From Gammaproteobacteria bacterium (lineage in GTDB: Bacteria > Pseudomonadota > Gammaproteobacteria > Acidiferrobacterales > Sulfurifustaceae): a stretch of DNA of 33,103 nucleotides. The notes under the pieces are model-generated. The model was given only the letters and a program-made list of their open reading frames with translations. It had not been told where the DNA came from and did no database searches. Where the stretch lies: assembly GCA_016199745.1 (NCBI GenBank), contig JACQFZ010000037.1:1-33103 (forward strand). Reading direction: 5' to 3'. A program made the position numbers and the translations under genes. Shown here piece after piece: positions 158 to 22,230 of the stretch. Position 1 is the first letter of the stretch, and the number at the start of each line of letters is the position of its first letter.

Positions 158-452
158 TTTTGGGCGCTGTTTCCTCGTCCGCTGGGCGCAGCGCAAATAC
201 AAACGACTTCGGAGACACCATTTGCAGGCATGGGAATGGTTGCGTCGTGTCAAAGCGAAACAACCCACCTTGTTCGCGCACTGGCATCCGGCGTCAGCGG
301 TTGGACGATAGGAGCCGGATGAATCGAGAGGTTCCCGTCTGGTTCTGGGAGGGCGTGGGGGTGAGATTCCCCTGCGCTACTCAACTATTTCCCGCATCGA
401 ACTCTCTCGGAAAATAAATCAGTCAGCTTTTTTTTGCGAGCTTTCTTGCCTA

Positions 453-2693: not shown

Positions 2694-2828
2694 TCAGCGA
2701 CAATGGCGCCGGTCCGCGGCGAAATCGATCGGGTTGCCGAGCGTATCGACGATCGTGAGAATCTTAGTGCCGAATCCGTCGCGCGAACGGCCCAGTGCTT
2801 GTGCGCCAGCTTTTTTGGTACCGGACAC
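2694..2828 (-). pseudogene. IS5-type transposase fragment
   Basis: On the minus strand this 45-codon stretch reads KKAGAQALGRSRDGFGTKI followed by LTIVDTLGNPIDF. That is the well-known segment of IS5-family DDE transposases (consensus ALGRSRGGFGTKIH..VDA.GNP..F), which carries one of the catalytic Asp residues. After DF the frame shifts: another frame continues TGAIVADTTE, which fits the following transposase consensus TGGQ..D.TQ. Only a small internal piece of the usual gene remains. Its upstream side is cut by the MITE-like element starting at 2829. Confidence 0.75.
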
Positions 2829-3031
2829 GAATGGCACTTAACTTAAAGCAAAAACCGAGATGTGTCAGCCGCCACTCCCTCCCCCTCAGGCGGAGGACCG
2901 GGTGGGTGTGGATTTTTTTTTAGCCATTGCAACCCATCCCCATCCTGTCCTTCCCCTTGAAGGGGAAGGGACCTGCTAATAACTTCAGGTGGACGATTTA
3001 GTAACATAGTTTAGTTAAGTAAGTACCATTC
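2829..3031. mobile_element. MITE-like element, copy A
   Basis: This 203-bp element has no coding capacity. The left end is GAATGGCACTTAACTTAA and the right end, reverse complemented, is GAATGGTACTTACTTAAC. The interior has short C/G-rich palindromic blocks (CTTCCCCTTGAAGGGGAAG near 2949) and a module ACCTGCTAATAACTT that recurs at 9.57 and 13.54 kb. It abuts the IS5-type fragment. The flanks are only loosely similar (GGTACCGGACAC left, GGTAGCGTCCGC right), so no clean target-site duplication is visible, unlike copies B and C. It is probably the oldest copy. Confidence 0.75.
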
Positions 3032-3146
3032 GGTAGCGTCCGCTTTATTTCCCTTATTTTATTCTTTGACTTGGATCAGCTTTTTGCGGCTCCGGCTCTC
3101 TCTTGGACGAGGAGAGGGAGTATTGGCGGATACGCTTGAGCTTTTG

Positions 3147-3165
3147 CTTAAGTTATGTGTCATCC
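3147..3165. repeat. Degenerate MITE end
   Basis: CTTAAGTTATGTGTCATCC resembles the right MITE end CTTAAGTAAGTGCCATTC with a few changes, and like copy C it is preceded by a T-rich GCTTTTG-type sequence. No matching left end is seen nearby except those of copy A. Confidence 0.35.
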
Positions 3166-3192
3166 ACCCTGGCACCTTTAATTCTGTTTTAA

Positions 3193-3477
3193 GTCGTTTC
3201 TAGCTTCTTTAACTTCCCGCGCGGCCACGAAGAAAATGTCATCAACGGTCAACGATATTGGCAGCTAGAGTCATCGCGCCGGTATCGTCAGCTCGCGTAT
3301 TTTTATAGCGCCGTACAGAGTGTTGAACGTGATCTCTGTTTCATCGACCCGATCCGCGCTCATGCGCGTTGTCGGCTAGCTGTTTGTGCCTTATCGACCG
3401 GTGAAAAATCGGTTTACTCGCAGGTGGGCGAGGAGATTGAACTGTTATACAAAACCTTCGAAAGGAGATTTGAGTGA
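3193..3477 (+). pseudogene. ORF fragment coupled to the secreted nuclease gene
   Basis: A 94-codon open frame without an ATG runs from just after a stop at 3190-3192 to a TGA at 3475-3477. It reads RGHEENVINGQRYWQLESSR, later YFYSAVQSVERDLCFIDPIR, and ends YKTFERRFE. The composition is that of a helical soluble protein, not random shadow coding. Its stop overlaps the GTG start of the next gene (GTGA), the usual sign of translational coupling. I do not recognise the family. The 5' part seems lost, perhaps through the MITE insertion or a frameshift just upstream. It could also be a chance open frame. Confidence 0.35.
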
Positions 3478-4415
3478 GCTGCCTTATAAAAAAACTCATG
3501 CGCCATCGACGACACACTAACTTAGATCAACCGAGCCGGCCCGCGACGGCGGCAAGTGCACGTTTAGCCTGGTTGCGCCTGATTTCTGGGCTCGCCTTAG
3601 GATGGTTAGCCATGGTCGCCACACCGGCGCAGGCGATTCAAATAACTGTTTTACAGTTCAATATGTGCGGCTGGGACGATAACCCCGAATGCGCTAATGA
3701 AGGCCGCGCACGATATATCTCGGTCGACATCTACCGGAGCCTTAAAGACAAAGGTTGGCCGCTCGTCGTTTCGCTGAACGAAGCTTGTAAGAATCAGGTC
3801 GACGCCGTTGCCGGCCTGACGAAGACCCATGACGGTATTTACTACGACGTGGTATTTCAAAAGAACAAACAGCCAGGCGCCACTTGTCAGTTCGGCAATG
3901 CGCTCATGATTAGAAGAGGGAGAACGGAATCACGGATTATTAGTCACGTCGCGGTACCTTATATCGCTACGCCGAGTGGGTTCGAGCCTCGAGGATTCGT
4001 TTGCGCCAGCATTAGAACTCCCGGGATGCACGTGTGCTCGACTCACTTGACGCCAGATAAGGAAGGGAGAGATTACAGCGGTGTCCGAAGTGCTCAAGTC
4101 GGAGAGCTCGTCCGGTACCTGACGAGACAGGGTTGGGCGCAATCCGGTGTTCGCACCTTAATCGCCGGCGACTTCAACGCCAAACCCGGTGCGGATGAGC
4201 TCGATCGAATTTACAAATCAAGCTATGGCGGCGGCGCCTGGGGCGTTTTCAACGAAGTCGATGGCTGTTGTTCAACTCGCGGTGGTGAATCCACTCACGG
4301 CAGCAGCAAGATCGATTACATTTTCTATTTCGGGAATTTTGTCTCGATGAGGGGGGACGCAACGTTAGCCCCGCATTCGGATCACGATCCGTTATGGGGT
4401 TGGATAACGTTGTAG
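3474..4415 (+). CDS. Secreted endonuclease/exonuclease/phosphatase-family enzyme
   Basis: This 313-residue protein belongs to the EEP fold shared by DNase I, sphingomyelinase and inositol phosphatases. It begins at a GTG with a strong AAAGGAG site 7 nt upstream. A basic N-region and a hydrophobic helix (about 33-50) ending TPAQA indicate export with cleavage near residue 54. Conserved EEP positions are visible in order: QFNMCG (Asn 63), LNEAC (Glu 103), CSTHLTP (His), AGDFNAKP (Asp, Asn) and the closing SDHDP. The catalytic set is therefore complete. Several Cys residues suit periplasmic or extracellular disulfides. The substrate, nucleic acid or phospho/sphingolipid, cannot be read from the sequence. 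Its start overlaps the stop of an upstream ORF fragment. Confidence 0.85.
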   Translation: MSCLIKKLMRHRRHTNLDQPSRPATAASARLAWLRLISGLALGWLAMVATPAQAIQITVLQFNMCGWDDNPECANEGRARYISVDIYRSLKDKGWPLVVSLNEACKNQVDAVAGLTKTHDGIYYDVVFQKNKQPGATCQFGNALMIRRGRTESRIISHVAVPYIATPSGFEPRGFVCASIRTPGMHVCSTHLTPDKEGRDYSGVRSAQVGELVRYLTRQGWAQSGVRTLIAGDFNAKPGADELDRIYKSSYGGGAWGVFNEVDGCCSTRGGESTHGSSKIDYIFYFGNFVSMRGDATLAPHSDHDPLWGWITL

Positions 4416-4445
4416 AAAGAACCAGGTGATCCCTCACACCGACCC

Positions 4446-4643
4446 GAATGGCACTTACTTAAGCCGCGGCACGCTCTAGCTCCCTCCCCCTCAGGGGGAG
4501 GGTTGGGGTGGGGGTGGGTTTTTTAGAAACAGGGATCTCGGTTATTGCTGCCATAAAACCCACCCCCACCCCAACCTCCCCCCTGAAGGGGGAGGAGTCA
4601 ATCGTGGCATCTGTTGTCGATGGCGCTTAAGTAAGTGCCATTC
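4446..4643. mobile_element. MITE-like element, copy B, with 11-bp target-site duplication
   Basis: This 198-bp non-coding element has perfect 19-bp terminal inverted repeats, GAATGGCACTTACTTAAGC. It is flanked by identical direct repeats CACACCGACCC at 4435-4445 and 4644-4654. The interior is itself a long imperfect palindrome of C/G tracts (4482-4520 against about 4557-4594), so almost the whole element can fold back. Eleven-bp duplications are typical of IS4-family transposition, which suggests an IS4-type transposase mobilised it; none is present in the window. Confidence 0.88.
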
Positions 4644-4650
4644 CACACCG

Positions 4651-4675
4651 ACCCCTCTCTCGATGGGAGAGGGGT
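4651..4675 (+). terminator. Hairpin, possible terminator
   Basis: ACCCCTCTC (4651-4659) pairs perfectly with GAGAGGGGT (4667-4675) over a 7-nt loop. It follows the nuclease gene and copy B, and precedes the HEAT-like gene. There is no U-tract, so it may instead be a palindromic repeat. Confidence 0.4.
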
Positions 4676-4706
4676 GATTAATCTATTCTAAGAAAGGGAC
4701 GCGCCC

Positions 4707-5774
4707 ATGAACCATTTTTCGTTGCGCAAATTGACGATCGGCATCGCCTTCAGTTTTTTTTCGGGGTTCGGGTTGGCACTGCTGATTCTTCACCATCCCG
4801 CGCATGAATGTAGCGTCACCACCGATAGCAACCGCGGCGATGTGACTGACGATCGTGCGGCCGGCGCAGCGTCGAACGATACGTCCGTTTTGGGCAAAAT
4901 CTCCCAGATATTGCCGTTTGACAGCACTGCCGCCGGATCAGTTTCGTCGGCGGAAGTACCAGCGTCTCTGGATCAACTGTGGGCGACGCTGATGGCGTCG
5001 TCAGCTGACGGGCAGACACTCGATAGGGAGGTGGTCGACCGGTTGCGCGAGTTGGTGCGGACGGATTCTGCGCTCTTGCACGAATTGCTTGGTCGTTACG
5101 ATCAATCGGATGAACAAGCTAAGCGCGCCCTGCAACTGGTGTTGTCAGATATCCAGCTGCCGGAAGTCGTCGCCTTCTCCGCGCGGCTCGCGACCCAGGG
5201 TGACGCTTCACAACGCCTGCGCGGATGGGAGTTGCTGGGCAGTCTTGGTGCCGACACGACGCAGGTACGCGAGTTGGTGAAGCAGACGTTGGCCACTGAG
5301 ACGAACCCGGATGTCTTGAGCCGTGCCATTGCCGTCCTTCGGCCTACCGTCGTCGAACAGACCGAGGCGCAGTCGATGGCAGCAAAGTTCACCGATTTGG
5401 CGCGGCATAACGATCCCGTGGTCAGAAGCGAAAGCTTGCGCGCCCTGGCGATATGGGACAAAACCGGTAACGCGGCGGAGGCCGGGCTTTATCAAGGTCT
5501 GTTGGATCAGTCATTAGAGGTACGCCGCGTGGCATTGTCCGTTGTCGGTGATACCCCATTGCGTTCGGAGCGGTTGAAAACGGCGTTAATGGACATGATT
5601 CAGAACGCGCATGAAACGCCGGACATCCAAGCCGCTGCTCTGGAGGCGCTGCAGCATTTCGCGCTAAACAGCAACGAGTATGCGCGTTACAACGAGGCGA
5701 GCGTGGAGGTCGAGCGGTATATGAAGGCGATAGCGCAGAACGTGGATGGCAATGGCGACGAAGAGAACCTCTGA
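4707..5774 (+). CDS. Membrane-anchored HEAT-like repeat protein, paralogue 1
   Basis: This 355-residue protein has one N-terminal hydrophobic helix (about 8-28), then a low-complexity linker, then an all-helical region from about 90 onward with HEAT/armadillo-like repeats. Repeat signatures include DPVVRSESLRALAIW and SLEVRRVALSVVGD. It has no catalytic motif. The topology predicts a periplasmic or outer-face scaffold held by the N-terminal anchor. It is a clear paralogue of the gene at 7953: shared words are LGRY / IGRY, VLSRAIAVL / VLSQAIAAL and RSERLKTAL / RSERLKATL in the same order. The next gene follows by about 45 bp on the same strand. Function unknown. Confidence 0.72.
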   Translation: MNHFSLRKLTIGIAFSFFSGFGLALLILHHPAHECSVTTDSNRGDVTDDRAAGAASNDTSVLGKISQILPFDSTAAGSVSSAEVPASLDQLWATLMASSADGQTLDREVVDRLRELVRTDSALLHELLGRYDQSDEQAKRALQLVLSDIQLPEVVAFSARLATQGDASQRLRGWELLGSLGADTTQVRELVKQTLATETNPDVLSRAIAVLRPTVVEQTEAQSMAAKFTDLARHNDPVVRSESLRALAIWDKTGNAAEAGLYQGLLDQSLEVRRVALSVVGDTPLRSERLKTALMDMIQNAHETPDIQAAALEALQHFALNSNEYARYNEASVEVERYMKAIAQNVDGNGDEENL

Positions 5775-7952: not shown

Positions 7953-8846
7953 ATGCGTCGATATTTTGGATTGCTGGCCGGTGTTGTGGGTGGAGTGTTA
8001 TTGATCGCGTTGTTCGTAGGTCGGGGCAGCGATACCGACCGAGCTGTCGACGAGCCGCGTGCCAACGGCCCAGCAGTACTCCGCGTGGTAACAGCGCCGA
8101 TCAATTCGGACGCTCGGAAACGGCGCTCGGCGCCGACCCGTTTGCCGATAGATACGCTTCTGGAAAAAGTGATGGCAGCGGATGATTCAGCGCAAGCGCT
8201 GAAAGAGCTACAGCGACTAGCGGCGGAAAATCCTGATGTGCTCGGCCAGCTGATCGGACGTTATCGATTGCCGCCAGGAATGGAAATCCTGAATCAAGAA
8301 GTAAGATGCGCGATCATGGATACATTGCGTGGCATTGCCATGACGCCCGAAGTGCTCGTCTTTGCCAAAGATCTTGCGCGTAGTCACGAGTCTTTCCAGC
8401 GCCGGCACGGCTTCGAATTGTTGCAGAAAATGTCAGTCACCACTGCCGATACTCGCGAGCTCATCACCCAGGCGCTAACCACAGAAAAAGACGCGCCGGT
8501 GTTGAGCCAAGCCATAGCCGCGTTGGGCAAGCAGGCTGTGCCGTACGAAAGCGAGGCGGTCGTGACGCAATTGCGTAAGTTGGCGCAGCATGAGGATTCG
8601 GAGGTGCGGCGTCAAAGCGTGCAAGCACTGTCATATTGGGACTCGACAGGAGGCGCGGAGACTCAACTTTATCGAGCACTCGGTGATAGTTCGTACGATG
8701 TTCGTTTTGCCGCGGTGGAGAGTATTAGCGAAAGCGGTGTACGTTCCGAACGTTTAAAAGCAACACTGACAGCCATACTTAACGACGCTAACGAGCATCT
8801 TGCCGTCAGAGGAGGCGCTCGTGTTGCATTGGAAAGTTTCCCCTAA
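7953..8846 (+). CDS. Membrane-anchored HEAT-like repeat protein, paralogue 2
   Basis: This 297-residue protein has an N-terminal membrane helix (about 6-23: LLAGVVGGVLLIALFVG) and a helical-repeat body with HEAT-like units such as DSEVRRQSVQALSYW and SYDVRFAAVESI. It aligns along its length with the protein at 4707, is shorter in the linker, and has no enzymatic motif. AGAGG lies about 6 nt before the ATG. It is probably a scaffold facing the periplasm. The CsbD-like gene follows after about 240 bp and need not be co-transcribed. Confidence 0.72.
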   Translation: MRRYFGLLAGVVGGVLLIALFVGRGSDTDRAVDEPRANGPAVLRVVTAPINSDARKRRSAPTRLPIDTLLEKVMAADDSAQALKELQRLAAENPDVLGQLIGRYRLPPGMEILNQEVRCAIMDTLRGIAMTPEVLVFAKDLARSHESFQRRHGFELLQKMSVTTADTRELITQALTTEKDAPVLSQAIAALGKQAVPYESEAVVTQLRKLAQHEDSEVRRQSVQALSYWDSTGGAETQLYRALGDSSYDVRFAAVESISESGVRSERLKATLTAILNDANEHLAVRGGARVALESFP

Positions 8847-13400: not shown

Positions 13401-13489
13401 TGCGCAAACGGGGCTTTTCAGTATCGGCTTGTATGCGCCCCCAGTTGTGGGCGCAATGGAGAGACTAAGAGATTAAAGGGGTCTCATGG

Positions 13490-13662
13490 GAATGGCACTT
13501 ACTTAACTCGACTATGTTACTAAACTGACCTGCCCCGAACTTATTAGCAGGTTCCTTCCCCTTCAGGGGGAAGGACAGGATGGGGGTGGGTTGTGGTCGC
13601 TACTGCAAAAAACCCACCCCCACCCCGGCCTGCTTCGGCTCTTGCTTAAGTAAGTGCCATTC
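13490..13662. mobile_element. MITE-like element, copy C, with 11-bp target-site duplication
   Basis: This 173-bp non-coding element has ends GAATGGCACTTACTTAA and CTTAAGTAAGTGCCATTC. Identical direct repeats GGGTCTCATGG flank it at 13479-13489 and 13663-13673. The interior has the shared module GAACTTATTAGCAGGTTCC and a G-rich tract opposed by a C-rich tract (GATGGGGGTGGGTT / AACCCACCCCCACCCC). It is the same family as copies A and B, with a different target-site sequence, so it inserted independently. Confidence 0.88.
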
Positions 13663-13733
13663 GGGTCTCATGGGACTCCCTCTAGTTGTTGACGTGTACC
13701 TTAACAAGGTGTCCAGTAAGAGGGGGGAAGTCC

Positions 13734-19590: not shown

Positions 19591-21705
19591 CTATTGCGTG
19601 ATATTTGTTCTTATGTTTTCTAAGGCACCGTCAATCGAGCGCAGTCTTCTATCGAAATCCTCTAAGTACTGCGTATAGCCAGCATCCGCGACGTAAACTT
19701 GCCTTGCGTTTTGTACAGCTACACGCGCATTCTCCAGCGCACCACGGTTTGCAGTGCGAACTCCAAGCGCATATAGCGCATTTCCCAAATTGTTTTGGGT
19801 CCTTGCCCACTCAAGTGGGGCCTGCTCGCGGGTAAGTTCCTCCAATGCCTGTTGACAGGCCGTCACTGCTGCATGGAGGTTGGTAGTGCCGCGTTCGTGT
19901 TGACCGAGCACCAAAAGAGCGTTGCCTAGGTTGCTCTGGGTCGTTGCCCACCGGCGCGGCACCCGCTCACGGGTACACACCTCCAATGCCAATCGATAGG
20001 CCGATACTGCTGCTTCGGGGTTGGCAATGTCATTTTCGCGTTCGCCGAGGGCGCAAAGAACATTCCCCAGATTGTTCTGTGTCTCCGCCCATTGGAGCGG
20101 TACCATCTCCCGAGTGTATTCCTGCAGTGCCAGTTGATAGGCAGCCATTGCTGCTCTGAGGTTGGCAGTGCCGCGTTCGCGTTGACCGAGTGCCATAAGA
20201 GCGTTGCCTAGGTTGTTCTGGGTCATCGCCCAAGCGAGCGGCACGCGCTCACGAGTACGCTCCTCCAATGCCAATCGATAGGCCGCCACTGCTGCTTCGA
20301 GGTTAGCAGTGTCACGTTCACGTTGACCGAGTGTTTTAAGAGCGTTGCCTAAATTGTTCTGGGTCATCGCCCAATCAAGCGGGACGTGCTCGCGGGTATA
20401 CACTTGCAATGCCAATCGATAGACCGTCACTGCTGCTTCGAGGTTAGCAGTGTCACGTTCGCGTTCACCGAGAGTACAAAGAACGTTTCCTAAGTCGTTC
20501 TGTATCATCGCCCACTGAACCGGTACTCGCTCACGGCTGAGGAGTTCAAGTGCTTGCTGAAACACGCTGATTGCTTGTGTCAGTGCATCGTTGCCAACTT
20601 GCCGGTCACCATAAAGCACTAAAGAGTAGGCCTGCTGCAGCAGGTACTCGCCCAATCTGTCCGGAAATCCGTCAGGTACCAATGCGCTAGCGCTCCTGAA
20701 GTGGTCGACGGCATCCCGATAATGTAATTGCGTCAAGCTCGCAATGCCCCGCAATGCGCGCGCAGCAGCGCGGTTGAGACGGCGCTGTGCGAGGGTTTGC
20801 GCTGCGCGTGCTTCAGCCTCGGCCTCAGTCCTGTCATAGTCAGCGAGCATGGTTTCTGCCTGCTCGTAACGTCCTTGATGAATTGTTTCGCGAACTGATT
20901 CGAGATGTGCCTGGCTATCTGCATCGTCGCCCTCGAGAGCGGCAACCCGGGAAAGCAGCCCGTTATGCCGCTTAGCGATCTGCGTCAAGGTTTCGGGTAA
21001 CTTTTCTCGCGAGACATGCTCACGCTGAAGGATAGCGAAGAAAGCTGCCAACGCCTGATCAGTAACGCCCAGTTGCTCGCGAAGTTCTCTTGCTTCGACG
21101 CCACCCTGTTGCATCGCCGCCAGAATGGTGTCGGGGTCATTGAAAATGACAATGTTGTCTCGCGCACCATCGCCAAATGCAACACCAGCCTCAGCTCGAT
21201 TCGTTGTACTGCCTAGCATCTCCAGAGTTTGTTTCAGACGTTCCTCGAGTTGAGACACGTGATAATCGGGGAACTCCTGTGTCAGCTCGGGGTGTCGGAG
21301 GAAGAGCACGCTCAAATGTGTGGATTCGATATGATTTGCTTCAATACGCAGCTTTTCTCCGCGAGCTCGAATCGCGGATATCACATCGTTGGATAATTTC
21401 CGTGGCGTGACGAACGTCCAGCGCTCTACAGGGAAACGGCCGTTAGTGCGAAGAAGCGCCGCCTTTTTGAGATCAGCATATGCCTTGTTGAGGTAGTCGG
21501 TGTCCTTTTTTCGCTCAGGCTTCAGTGGACAAAAAATCGCAAAAATCCTTCGCTCCGAATTCAACCATCCGTCGTTTCCCCCATCTCCTCGTGTACCATC
21601 GATCGGTTGGTAGTCATGGCCGTACTCGGCTGCGAATACGGTATTACAGAGTCGGGTAAACAGGGTGGGGACTACAGTTTGAGCGATTTGATCTTCCAAT
21701 GACAT
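19591..21705 (-). CDS. Restriction endonuclease-fold / TPR protein, candidate defence or stress effector
   Basis: I take ATG 21705 (GGAAGAGAG upstream) rather than the GTG at 21756, which has no ribosome binding site. The 704-residue protein has an N-terminal domain (1-140) with FTRLCNTVFAAEYGHDYQPI, then GDGGNDG (41-46 with Asp 41 and 45), strand IFAIFCPLK (Lys 62) and RWTFVTPRKLS. This fits a divergent PD-(D/E)XK (Mrr-like) nuclease fold; the usual Glu of E-x-K is not clear, so activity is uncertain. A helical middle follows, with an acidic, Ala-rich coiled region (about 280-330). Then come TPR units, of which six are near-identical 47-residue repeats (W..TQNNLGNAL..LG.RE). Such nuclease-plus-TPR proteins are seen among bacterial conflict systems. 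It stands alone. Confidence 0.72.
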   Translation of the reverse strand: MSLEDQIAQTVVPTLFTRLCNTVFAAEYGHDYQPIDGTRGDGGNDGWLNSERRIFAIFCPLKPERKKDTDYLNKAYADLKKAALLRTNGRFPVERWTFVTPRKLSNDVISAIRARGEKLRIEANHIESTHLSVLFLRHPELTQEFPDYHVSQLEERLKQTLEMLGSTTNRAEAGVAFGDGARDNIVIFNDPDTILAAMQQGGVEARELREQLGVTDQALAAFFAILQREHVSREKLPETLTQIAKRHNGLLSRVAALEGDDADSQAHLESVRETIHQGRYEQAETMLADYDRTEAEAEARAAQTLAQRRLNRAAARALRGIASLTQLHYRDAVDHFRSASALVPDGFPDRLGEYLLQQAYSLVLYGDRQVGNDALTQAISVFQQALELLSRERVPVQWAMIQNDLGNVLCTLGERERDTANLEAAVTVYRLALQVYTREHVPLDWAMTQNNLGNALKTLGQRERDTANLEAAVAAYRLALEERTRERVPLAWAMTQNNLGNALMALGQRERGTANLRAAMAAYQLALQEYTREMVPLQWAETQNNLGNVLCALGERENDIANPEAAVSAYRLALEVCTRERVPRRWATTQSNLGNALLVLGQHERGTTNLHAAVTACQQALEELTREQAPLEWARTQNNLGNALYALGVRTANRGALENARVAVQNARQVYVADAGYTQYLEDFDRRLRSIDGALENIRTNITQ
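19678..20523 (-). repeat. Six tandem 141-bp coding repeats (TPR units)
   Basis: The conserved Trp codon of each TPR unit lies exactly 141 bp from the next (at 20514, 20373, 20232, 20091, 19950 and 19809), so six 47-residue units are kept in register without indels. The middle units are most alike at DNA level, suggesting recent duplication or gene conversion. The last unit diverges at its C-terminal end. Confidence 0.85.
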
Positions 21706-22230
21706 GGTGGTCAGCTCTCTTCCGCCATCAGTAAGTCGCTGCCGATGTGATTGCACGCCGATAGTGGGACATCAGAATATTACCGGACTCGCATAGATTA
21801 CGCCCACTCTACAATTACCACTACTGCACGGAGTGTCTGAATTGGGTCGAATTCAGACGCTTACAAAGAACGTCGAACCGAGAGTAATGTCTCGAGAGTC
21901 GAAAGGCACTGACGTTGCTCATAGACACCGCTGTCGGCGCGTCTGATATTCCGTGCCGCATATGCGTGGTGCGCAAAAAGCGCGCACCGCGCACCACGCA
22001 CGATGATGTTTATTTATTGCGACGGCGCGTGCGGCATCTAGCGCTTAGCGCTACTAGGGATCGCCGGGAAAGTTACTGCGTATAGTGAGGGGAGCCAGAT
22101 TATGCGACTACGAATCATGCCGCCGGAATAAATGAAACGGCACTTTCGTTCATAAAAACCGCTACCAAAAAAGGCGCAGAACCAGGCAGAATACCGCGCT
22201 ACACCATAACGACAAAAAGGGATTTTTGCG
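21706..22230. other. Divergent intergenic region
   Basis: This lies between the starts of the nuclease/TPR gene (leftward) and the DUF6402 gene (rightward). Minus-strand open frames in 22038-22499 are shadows of the DUF6402 frame or unsupported. It holds a strong stem-loop (21963-22000) and a small TAGCGC-TTA-GCGCTA dyad near 22039. AAAGGGA precedes the ATG at 22231. Confidence 0.5.
21963..22000. repeat. Stem-loop, 12-bp perfect arms
   Basis: TGCGTGGTGCGC (21963-21974) pairs with GCGCACCACGCA (21989-22000) over a 14-nt loop. It is GC-rich and lies midway between two divergent genes, about 230 bp before the DUF6402 start, so it is not an obvious terminator of either. It could be an extragenic palindrome. 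Confidence 0.6.

Follow-up and report, generated by a model that had tools for sequence, protein, structure and literature searches.

A 198-bp MITE of a gammaproteobacterial draft genome and its putative IS4-subgroup partner

The MIC231 cassettes are non-autonomous, carry passenger genes, and rely on an IS4-family transposase acting on the ends that they share with an insertion sequence (IS). They belong to IS231, an IS4-family element of the Bacillus cereus group that falls in a different subgroup (De Palmenaer et al. 2008, PMC2266710) from the one discussed here, and they differ further from the MITE described below, which is a 198-bp non-coding foldback. The IS4 subgroup itself is characterised in the same paper (PMC2266710) by ends of the form -AATR--------WTW----, a typical length of 1400–1650 bp, repeats of 10–13 bp, and the DDE motif D(60-110)D(100-150)E together with the YREK motif Y(2)R(3)E(6)K; for some of its elements the paper describes insertion as strongly specific for the arms that surround the target.

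Other bacterial MITEs, as presented in a MITE review (PMC10969869), are alike in short size, terminal inverted repeats and target duplications; their ends and partner differ, the core in the present case being a dispersed G-rich palindrome. The term IS4 has no occurrence in the main text of that review, and among the matches listed from the open-licence literature no IS4-family MITE with 11-bp duplications was recognised. Three candidate reports were set aside on their matching passages: in PMC6133989 the 11 bp refer to a gene deletion and a possible 332-bp MITE is not tied to IS4, in PMC4596501 IS4 appears in a reference title only, and in PMC9330008 the MITE and the IS4 family are mentioned in separate passages. 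The string GGCACTTACTTAAG, which appears in an extract of a P. aeruginosa genome note (PMC7378034), was taken as chance. Among the open-licence matches listed for Muproteobacteria with a MITE or insertion sequence, none mentions Muproteobacteria.

The window analysed here, 33,103 nucleotides in length, is the entire contig C37 of the draft genome (4.26 Mb, 72 contigs) of a member of the Sulfurifustaceae, hereafter the host. By every sequence feature tested, positions 4446–4643 of this window are a MITE, and its mobilisation in trans is putative. The contig itself begins close to a match to the Rfam group II catalytic intron (RF00029, 50.9 bits, window 310–385, + strand), and a repeated intron of this type may explain where the contig starts. 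Further along, a 721-aa TPR protein is encoded at 19591–21756 (− strand), with in-register tandem repeats at 141-bp spacing.

The element and its copies in the host genome

The left terminal inverted repeat, GAATGGCACTTACTTAAGC (4446–4464, + strand), is the exact reverse complement of the right one (4625–4643, − strand); read directly, the two agree at 19/19 positions, just as the initial annotation had it, and the twentieth base breaks the match. That annotation was equally accurate in placing an 11-bp target-site duplication exactly around the element, with CACACCGACCC at 4435–4445 repeated at 4644–4654 (11/11). Between the ends lies an inner palindrome, formed from a left arm at 4480–4531 (+ strand), which is a G-rich repeat on the hairpin CCCTCCCCCTCAGGGGGAGGG, and a right arm at 4546–4597 (− strand), the arms being 52 nt each and 83% complementary; the centre of the element is made up of a G-rich unit with this hairpin, present twice in inverted orientation. 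The whole is nearly self-complementary, and the predicted RNA fold (−130.9 kcal/mol, z −11.8) is a foldback running nearly end to end. No ORF of at least 100 aa overlaps 4446–4643, nothing in Rfam matched inside it at the gathering threshold, and a plasmid search with window positions 4380–4720 gave no match.

Repeats aside, nothing in the DNA of 20 relatives matches the genes on either side (window 3474–5774), and the downstream protein (4707–5774) has no homologue in these 20; a relative that has the flanking genes, and so might show the unoccupied site, was not found among them. This protein matches Pfam HEAT_2 and is related, at ~35% identity, to the one encoded at 7953–8846 (both + strand), with paralogues on host contigs C22 and C5.

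Across the window the 19-mer end occurs five times at ≤3 mismatches, where 100 dinucleotide shuffles average 0.01 matches. A decayed copy of the family lies at 2829–3031, with three and one end mismatches and no clean duplication, and a third copy of 173 bp at 13490–13662 has both 17-bp ends exact, a fold z of −7.7, and the 11-bp duplication GGGTCTCATGG at 13479–13489 and 13663–13673. A whole-genome search for the end, as had been recommended, found 96 copies of its 17-bp form at ≤2 mismatches, including 42 exact ones, and a reversed-pattern control gave none. Elements were then defined as the nearest inward pairs of ends less than 400 bp apart, with ≤4 mismatches per end, sought in the window and in 46 stretches taken around the end matches of the host genome. 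The resulting host family comprises 43 nearest-pair elements, or roughly forty copies, of 109–372 bp. Host contig C38 (loci L093–L095, 46.6 kb) is especially rich in the ends, with 27 matches at ≤4 mismatches, and some of its insertions lie next to each other or in tandem.

The abutting duplication is perfect at 11 bp in 11/43 pairs and at 10 bp in 3/43, and at least 10 of the 11 bases agree in 17/43. Two of the 11 perfect pairs neighbour each other at one common target (C38:15370 and C38:15566). When the left flank of each element was compared with the right flanks of the others, perfect agreement was found in only 5/1806 cross-pairs at 11 bp and 0/1806 at 10 bp; two of the five come from C38:15370/15566, two from the adjacent C35:7015/7222, and one from the look-alike sites C7:7224 and C38:20042. 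With one-base boundary shifts allowed, a duplication score of at least 5 is reached by 28/43 pairs, as against 16/1806 cross-pairs. The ends thus recur genome-wide, many of them with 10–11-bp duplications, which supports the initial proposal that the non-coding element had transposed. The initial annotation also took copies lacking flanking 11-bp repeats as a sign against transposition: the duplication is kept in some copies only, the other 15/43 pairs scoring below 5, without a convincing duplication. Among these 15 are the closest copy to 4446–4643 (C16:29286–29483, 98% identical) and two copies with both 17-bp ends exact (C5:5716–5902 and C35:7015–7210). Copies of this type may be old, nested or recombined. 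Across both pieces of C35:7015–7330 the outer 11-bp repeat is perfect, and at C38:15370–15855 three copies of GGTTCCGTTCC bracket two elements, as if one target had been used twice.

The probable partner insertion sequence and its target sites

The length of the duplication, 11 bp, had led the initial annotation to an IS4-family transposase, with none encoded in the window; no transposase match was found on this contig. The search for the ends was extended to 96 genomes, host included, of which 21 had a match, and in relatives it revealed inward pairs of ends ~1.5 kb apart. ISs of 1504–1529 bp with the same 17-bp ends are present in four relative genomes (G002, G015, G036 and G038), and one further G036 copy measures 1673 bp, with its reading frame in pieces. 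Those of 1504–1529 bp contain a long ORF, of 456 aa in G036, 462 in G002, 463 in G038 (with X residues where the DNA has N) and 478 in G015, all counted from the first start. The two proteins tested, from G036 and G002, match the NCBIfam IS4 family transposase model NF033592 with E-values of 6.4e-63 and 6.9e-67 (212.9 and 225.9 bits against a cut-off of 115), and both also match Pfam DDE_Tnp_1 (PF01609). In relatives, an IS4-family transposase gene lies between these same ends, which supports the family assignment.

When GTDB genomes were scanned with a seven-sequence transposase alignment, 371 relatives were identified, 80 of which were kept. At 71/80 of these transposase loci from named genomes, ends are found on both sides with ≤5 mismatches each. 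Duplications of 11 bp accompany 24 of the 71, with a mismatch in one case and perfect in the other 23, and duplications of 10 bp another 16; the remaining 31 lack a clean repeat or do not have both flanks. Complete ISs with the same ends and 11-bp duplications, which had been suggested as a search target, are thus present in relatives. Around one partner IS (L138, G036:C1:289600-292100) there are two nested pairs of family ends, with a 10-bp repeat, judged by eye, at the outer pair only. In plasmids, 539 records match the partner transposase. A Pseudomonas veronii plasmid carries the best match (~69%), with both 17-bp ends exact and 1498 bp apart; an Acidovorax plasmid relative (58%) shows a 10-bp repeat, one of its ends being exact and the other having 2 mismatches; and in an Aeromonas caviae copy the left end alone is visible in the stretch read.

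A target profile was built on 22 distinct 11-bp IS duplications (symmetrised consensus GGGTCNGACCC) and used to score 23 distinct MITE duplications, each with at least 9 of 11 bases matching. The MITE duplications have a mean of 2.43, a value that 0/10000 random sets reach; random 11-mers drawn from the host stretches average −8.44. The site of 4446–4643, CACACCGACCC, scores 2.63, which is reached by 1.12% of random 11-mers, and the lowest-scoring MITE site is C38:26530, at −10.87. Positions just outside the duplications are A/T-rich.

A tree of the IS transposases was made from 65/81 rows, with 16 omitted for a stop in the translation or a length of ≤400 aa, and labelled by duplication length (22 rows 11 bp, 16 rows 10 bp, 27 unlabelled). 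The label changes three times on this tree against a shuffled mean of 12.4, and 0/500 shuffles are as low, near-copies inflating the clustering. In a 36-row clade (support 100/99), 19 rows are labelled 11 bp and one 10 bp; in a 22-row clade (support 100/100), 14 are labelled 10 bp and the 11-bp label is absent. The other labelled rows, three of 11 bp and one of 10 bp, lie near the tree base. If, as is likely, the clades do differ in this way, the transposase would fix the stagger whatever the ends, and the mostly 11-bp sites of the MITE family would record which IS clade moved the MITEs. Such clades, with the same ends and different duplication lengths, offer a natural comparison for what sets the transposase stagger.

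In the host, traces of the partner are confined to contig ends. Contig C13 terminates in the 3′ 121 bp of a partner-type IS (76.9% to L192), with the coding frame stopping within the right inverted repeat, and C56 terminates in the 5′ 141 bp of a partner-type IS, start codon included (80.3%). The best matches of these fragments, L192 (from Candidatus Muproteobacteria RBG_16_65_34, corresponding to G002:C76) and L194 (which, with L193, is from Sulfuricaulis sp. S40-5 and corresponds to G015), both belong to the 36-row, mostly 11-bp clade. The flanks of C13 and C56 do not match as the two sides of a single insertion, so the fragments probably derive from different IS copies. As one 5′ and one 3′ end are found at contig ends, a full IS has probably been lost in assembly gaps, and it is likely that repeated IS copies broke the host assembly. 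In tblastn of the G002 transposase against the host, no more than the C-terminal residues 425–462 were matched at the ends of C13, C38, C25 and C12, and the two further, distant matches fall on other IS4-type genes of C57 and C35. A second IS4-type element, whose 3′ end is CAATGGCACTGCTTTAAGC, accounts for the ends of C38, C25 and C12.

The expectation of a partner IS elsewhere in the host genome thus holds as far as the end fragments go; a complete copy was not found in the assembled host by searches with PF01609, PF13006 or a relative's transposase. PF01609 gave five host matches, none of them flanked by an inward pair of family ends (≤5 mismatches), and PF13006 gave 0. A transposase gene on host contig C6 (L060) was rejected as the partner, as it lies in an IS4-type IS (L060 1111–2451) that by eye has different ends, CTGAGGTTTCCCCACA, perfect over 16 bp, and the 9-bp repeat GGTCGGAGT. 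Adjoining this IS is an end of the AATGGCACT type in degraded form. At the end of host contig C24 (L084), an end copy is followed, by eye, by an apparent transposase start that we take to be IS110-type.

From the shared ends, the duplications, the partner in relatives, the end fragments in the host and the matching target preference, it appears very probable that 4446–4643 is a MITE moved in trans by an IS4-subgroup IS of ~1.5 kb with the same ends. The IS transposase would bind the ends of ~17–19 bp and move the MITE in trans, and insertion would proceed through an 11-bp staggered cut at a roughly palindromic site, GGGTCNGACCC, A/T-rich just outside, giving rise to the duplication. An intact partner copy would be present in the host now, or would have been formerly.

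Origin of the core and alternative readings

Similarity in the core links 40/43 elements (E 1e-3, single linkage, low complexity favouring such links). In a subset of 11 host matches to the palindrome that were tested for end-like sequence (≤5 mismatches, within 180 bp), six had none, three had it on one side and two on both, and the relative G012 has 10 palindrome matches but no family end at ≤1 mismatch. As palindromes without ends occur in both the host and G012, the core appears to be an independent dispersed repeat. Outside the ends, MITE and IS share weak homology or none. Together, these comparisons suggest that the MITE looks like a pair of ends flanking a pre-existing G-rich palindrome, not a trimmed IS, the ends having come to flank a repeat that would already have existed. 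A simple internal-deletion derivative of the IS, with its two ends kept, would account for the identical ends and for a 39-nt right-end stretch that is 84.6% identical to the IS right end (~19 of these being the terminal repeat itself); it is nonetheless unlikely, as tblastn of the partner transposase against the host found no match inside any MITE, and core-like palindromes are found without ends at the six host loci and in G012.

Retention of 4446–4643 for host use, with a role in transcription termination or as an mRNA hairpin between the same-strand genes 3474–4415 and 4707–5774, would draw on its strong foldback (z −11.8) and its position between two like-oriented ORFs. This seems quite improbable, since a simple terminator scan (loops of 3–8 only) found none within the element, no promoter-like sites were found in 2700–5000, and the copies are dispersed with target duplications, as would be expected of a selfish element. 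Cross-mobilisation of the MITEs by the second IS4-type element is very doubtful: its end and C-terminal coding sequence (~53% identical to that of the first partner) do lie on three contig ends, and CAATGGCAC-type ends occur on some genome copies, but the 17-bp end of 4446–4643 is GAATGGCACTTACTTAA, the end of many ISs of the 11-bp clade and not that of the second IS.

Comparison with known systems

Three lines of evidence, namely the ends, the duplication length and the target preference, tie the MITE family to the first partner as its likely driver. The case also illustrates how a draft assembly can hide a driver, the host IS surviving only as contig-end fragments.

The assignment of that partner to the IS4 subgroup draws on its transposases, ends and duplications. 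D140, D219 and E327 are conserved in 7/7 of the partner transposases; the second catalytic D was picked by eye, with D214 also present in 7/7, and the spacing fits with either. For the YREK motif, Y320 is found in 6/7 (F in the P. veronii plasmid copy) and R323, E327 and K334 in 7/7. The Nterm_IS4 domain (PF13006) is matched weakly by 2/7 partner transposases (best E 0.0052) and, at E 0.001, in 0/96 genomes, with an E. coli control detected. On these sequence features the partner fits the published description of the IS4 subgroup, with Nterm_IS4 not convincingly present. Set against PMC2266710, the partner ends, GAATGGCACTTACTTA, fit the -AATR--------WTW---- pattern of Table 1, the partner size of 1425–1566 bp (71/80 loci) lies in or at the typical range, and the duplications of 10–11 bp lie inside the range of 10–13 bp; the MITE itself differs from the subgroup in having no coding content. 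The element 4446–4643, together with its likely driver, is a clean instance of an already known kind.
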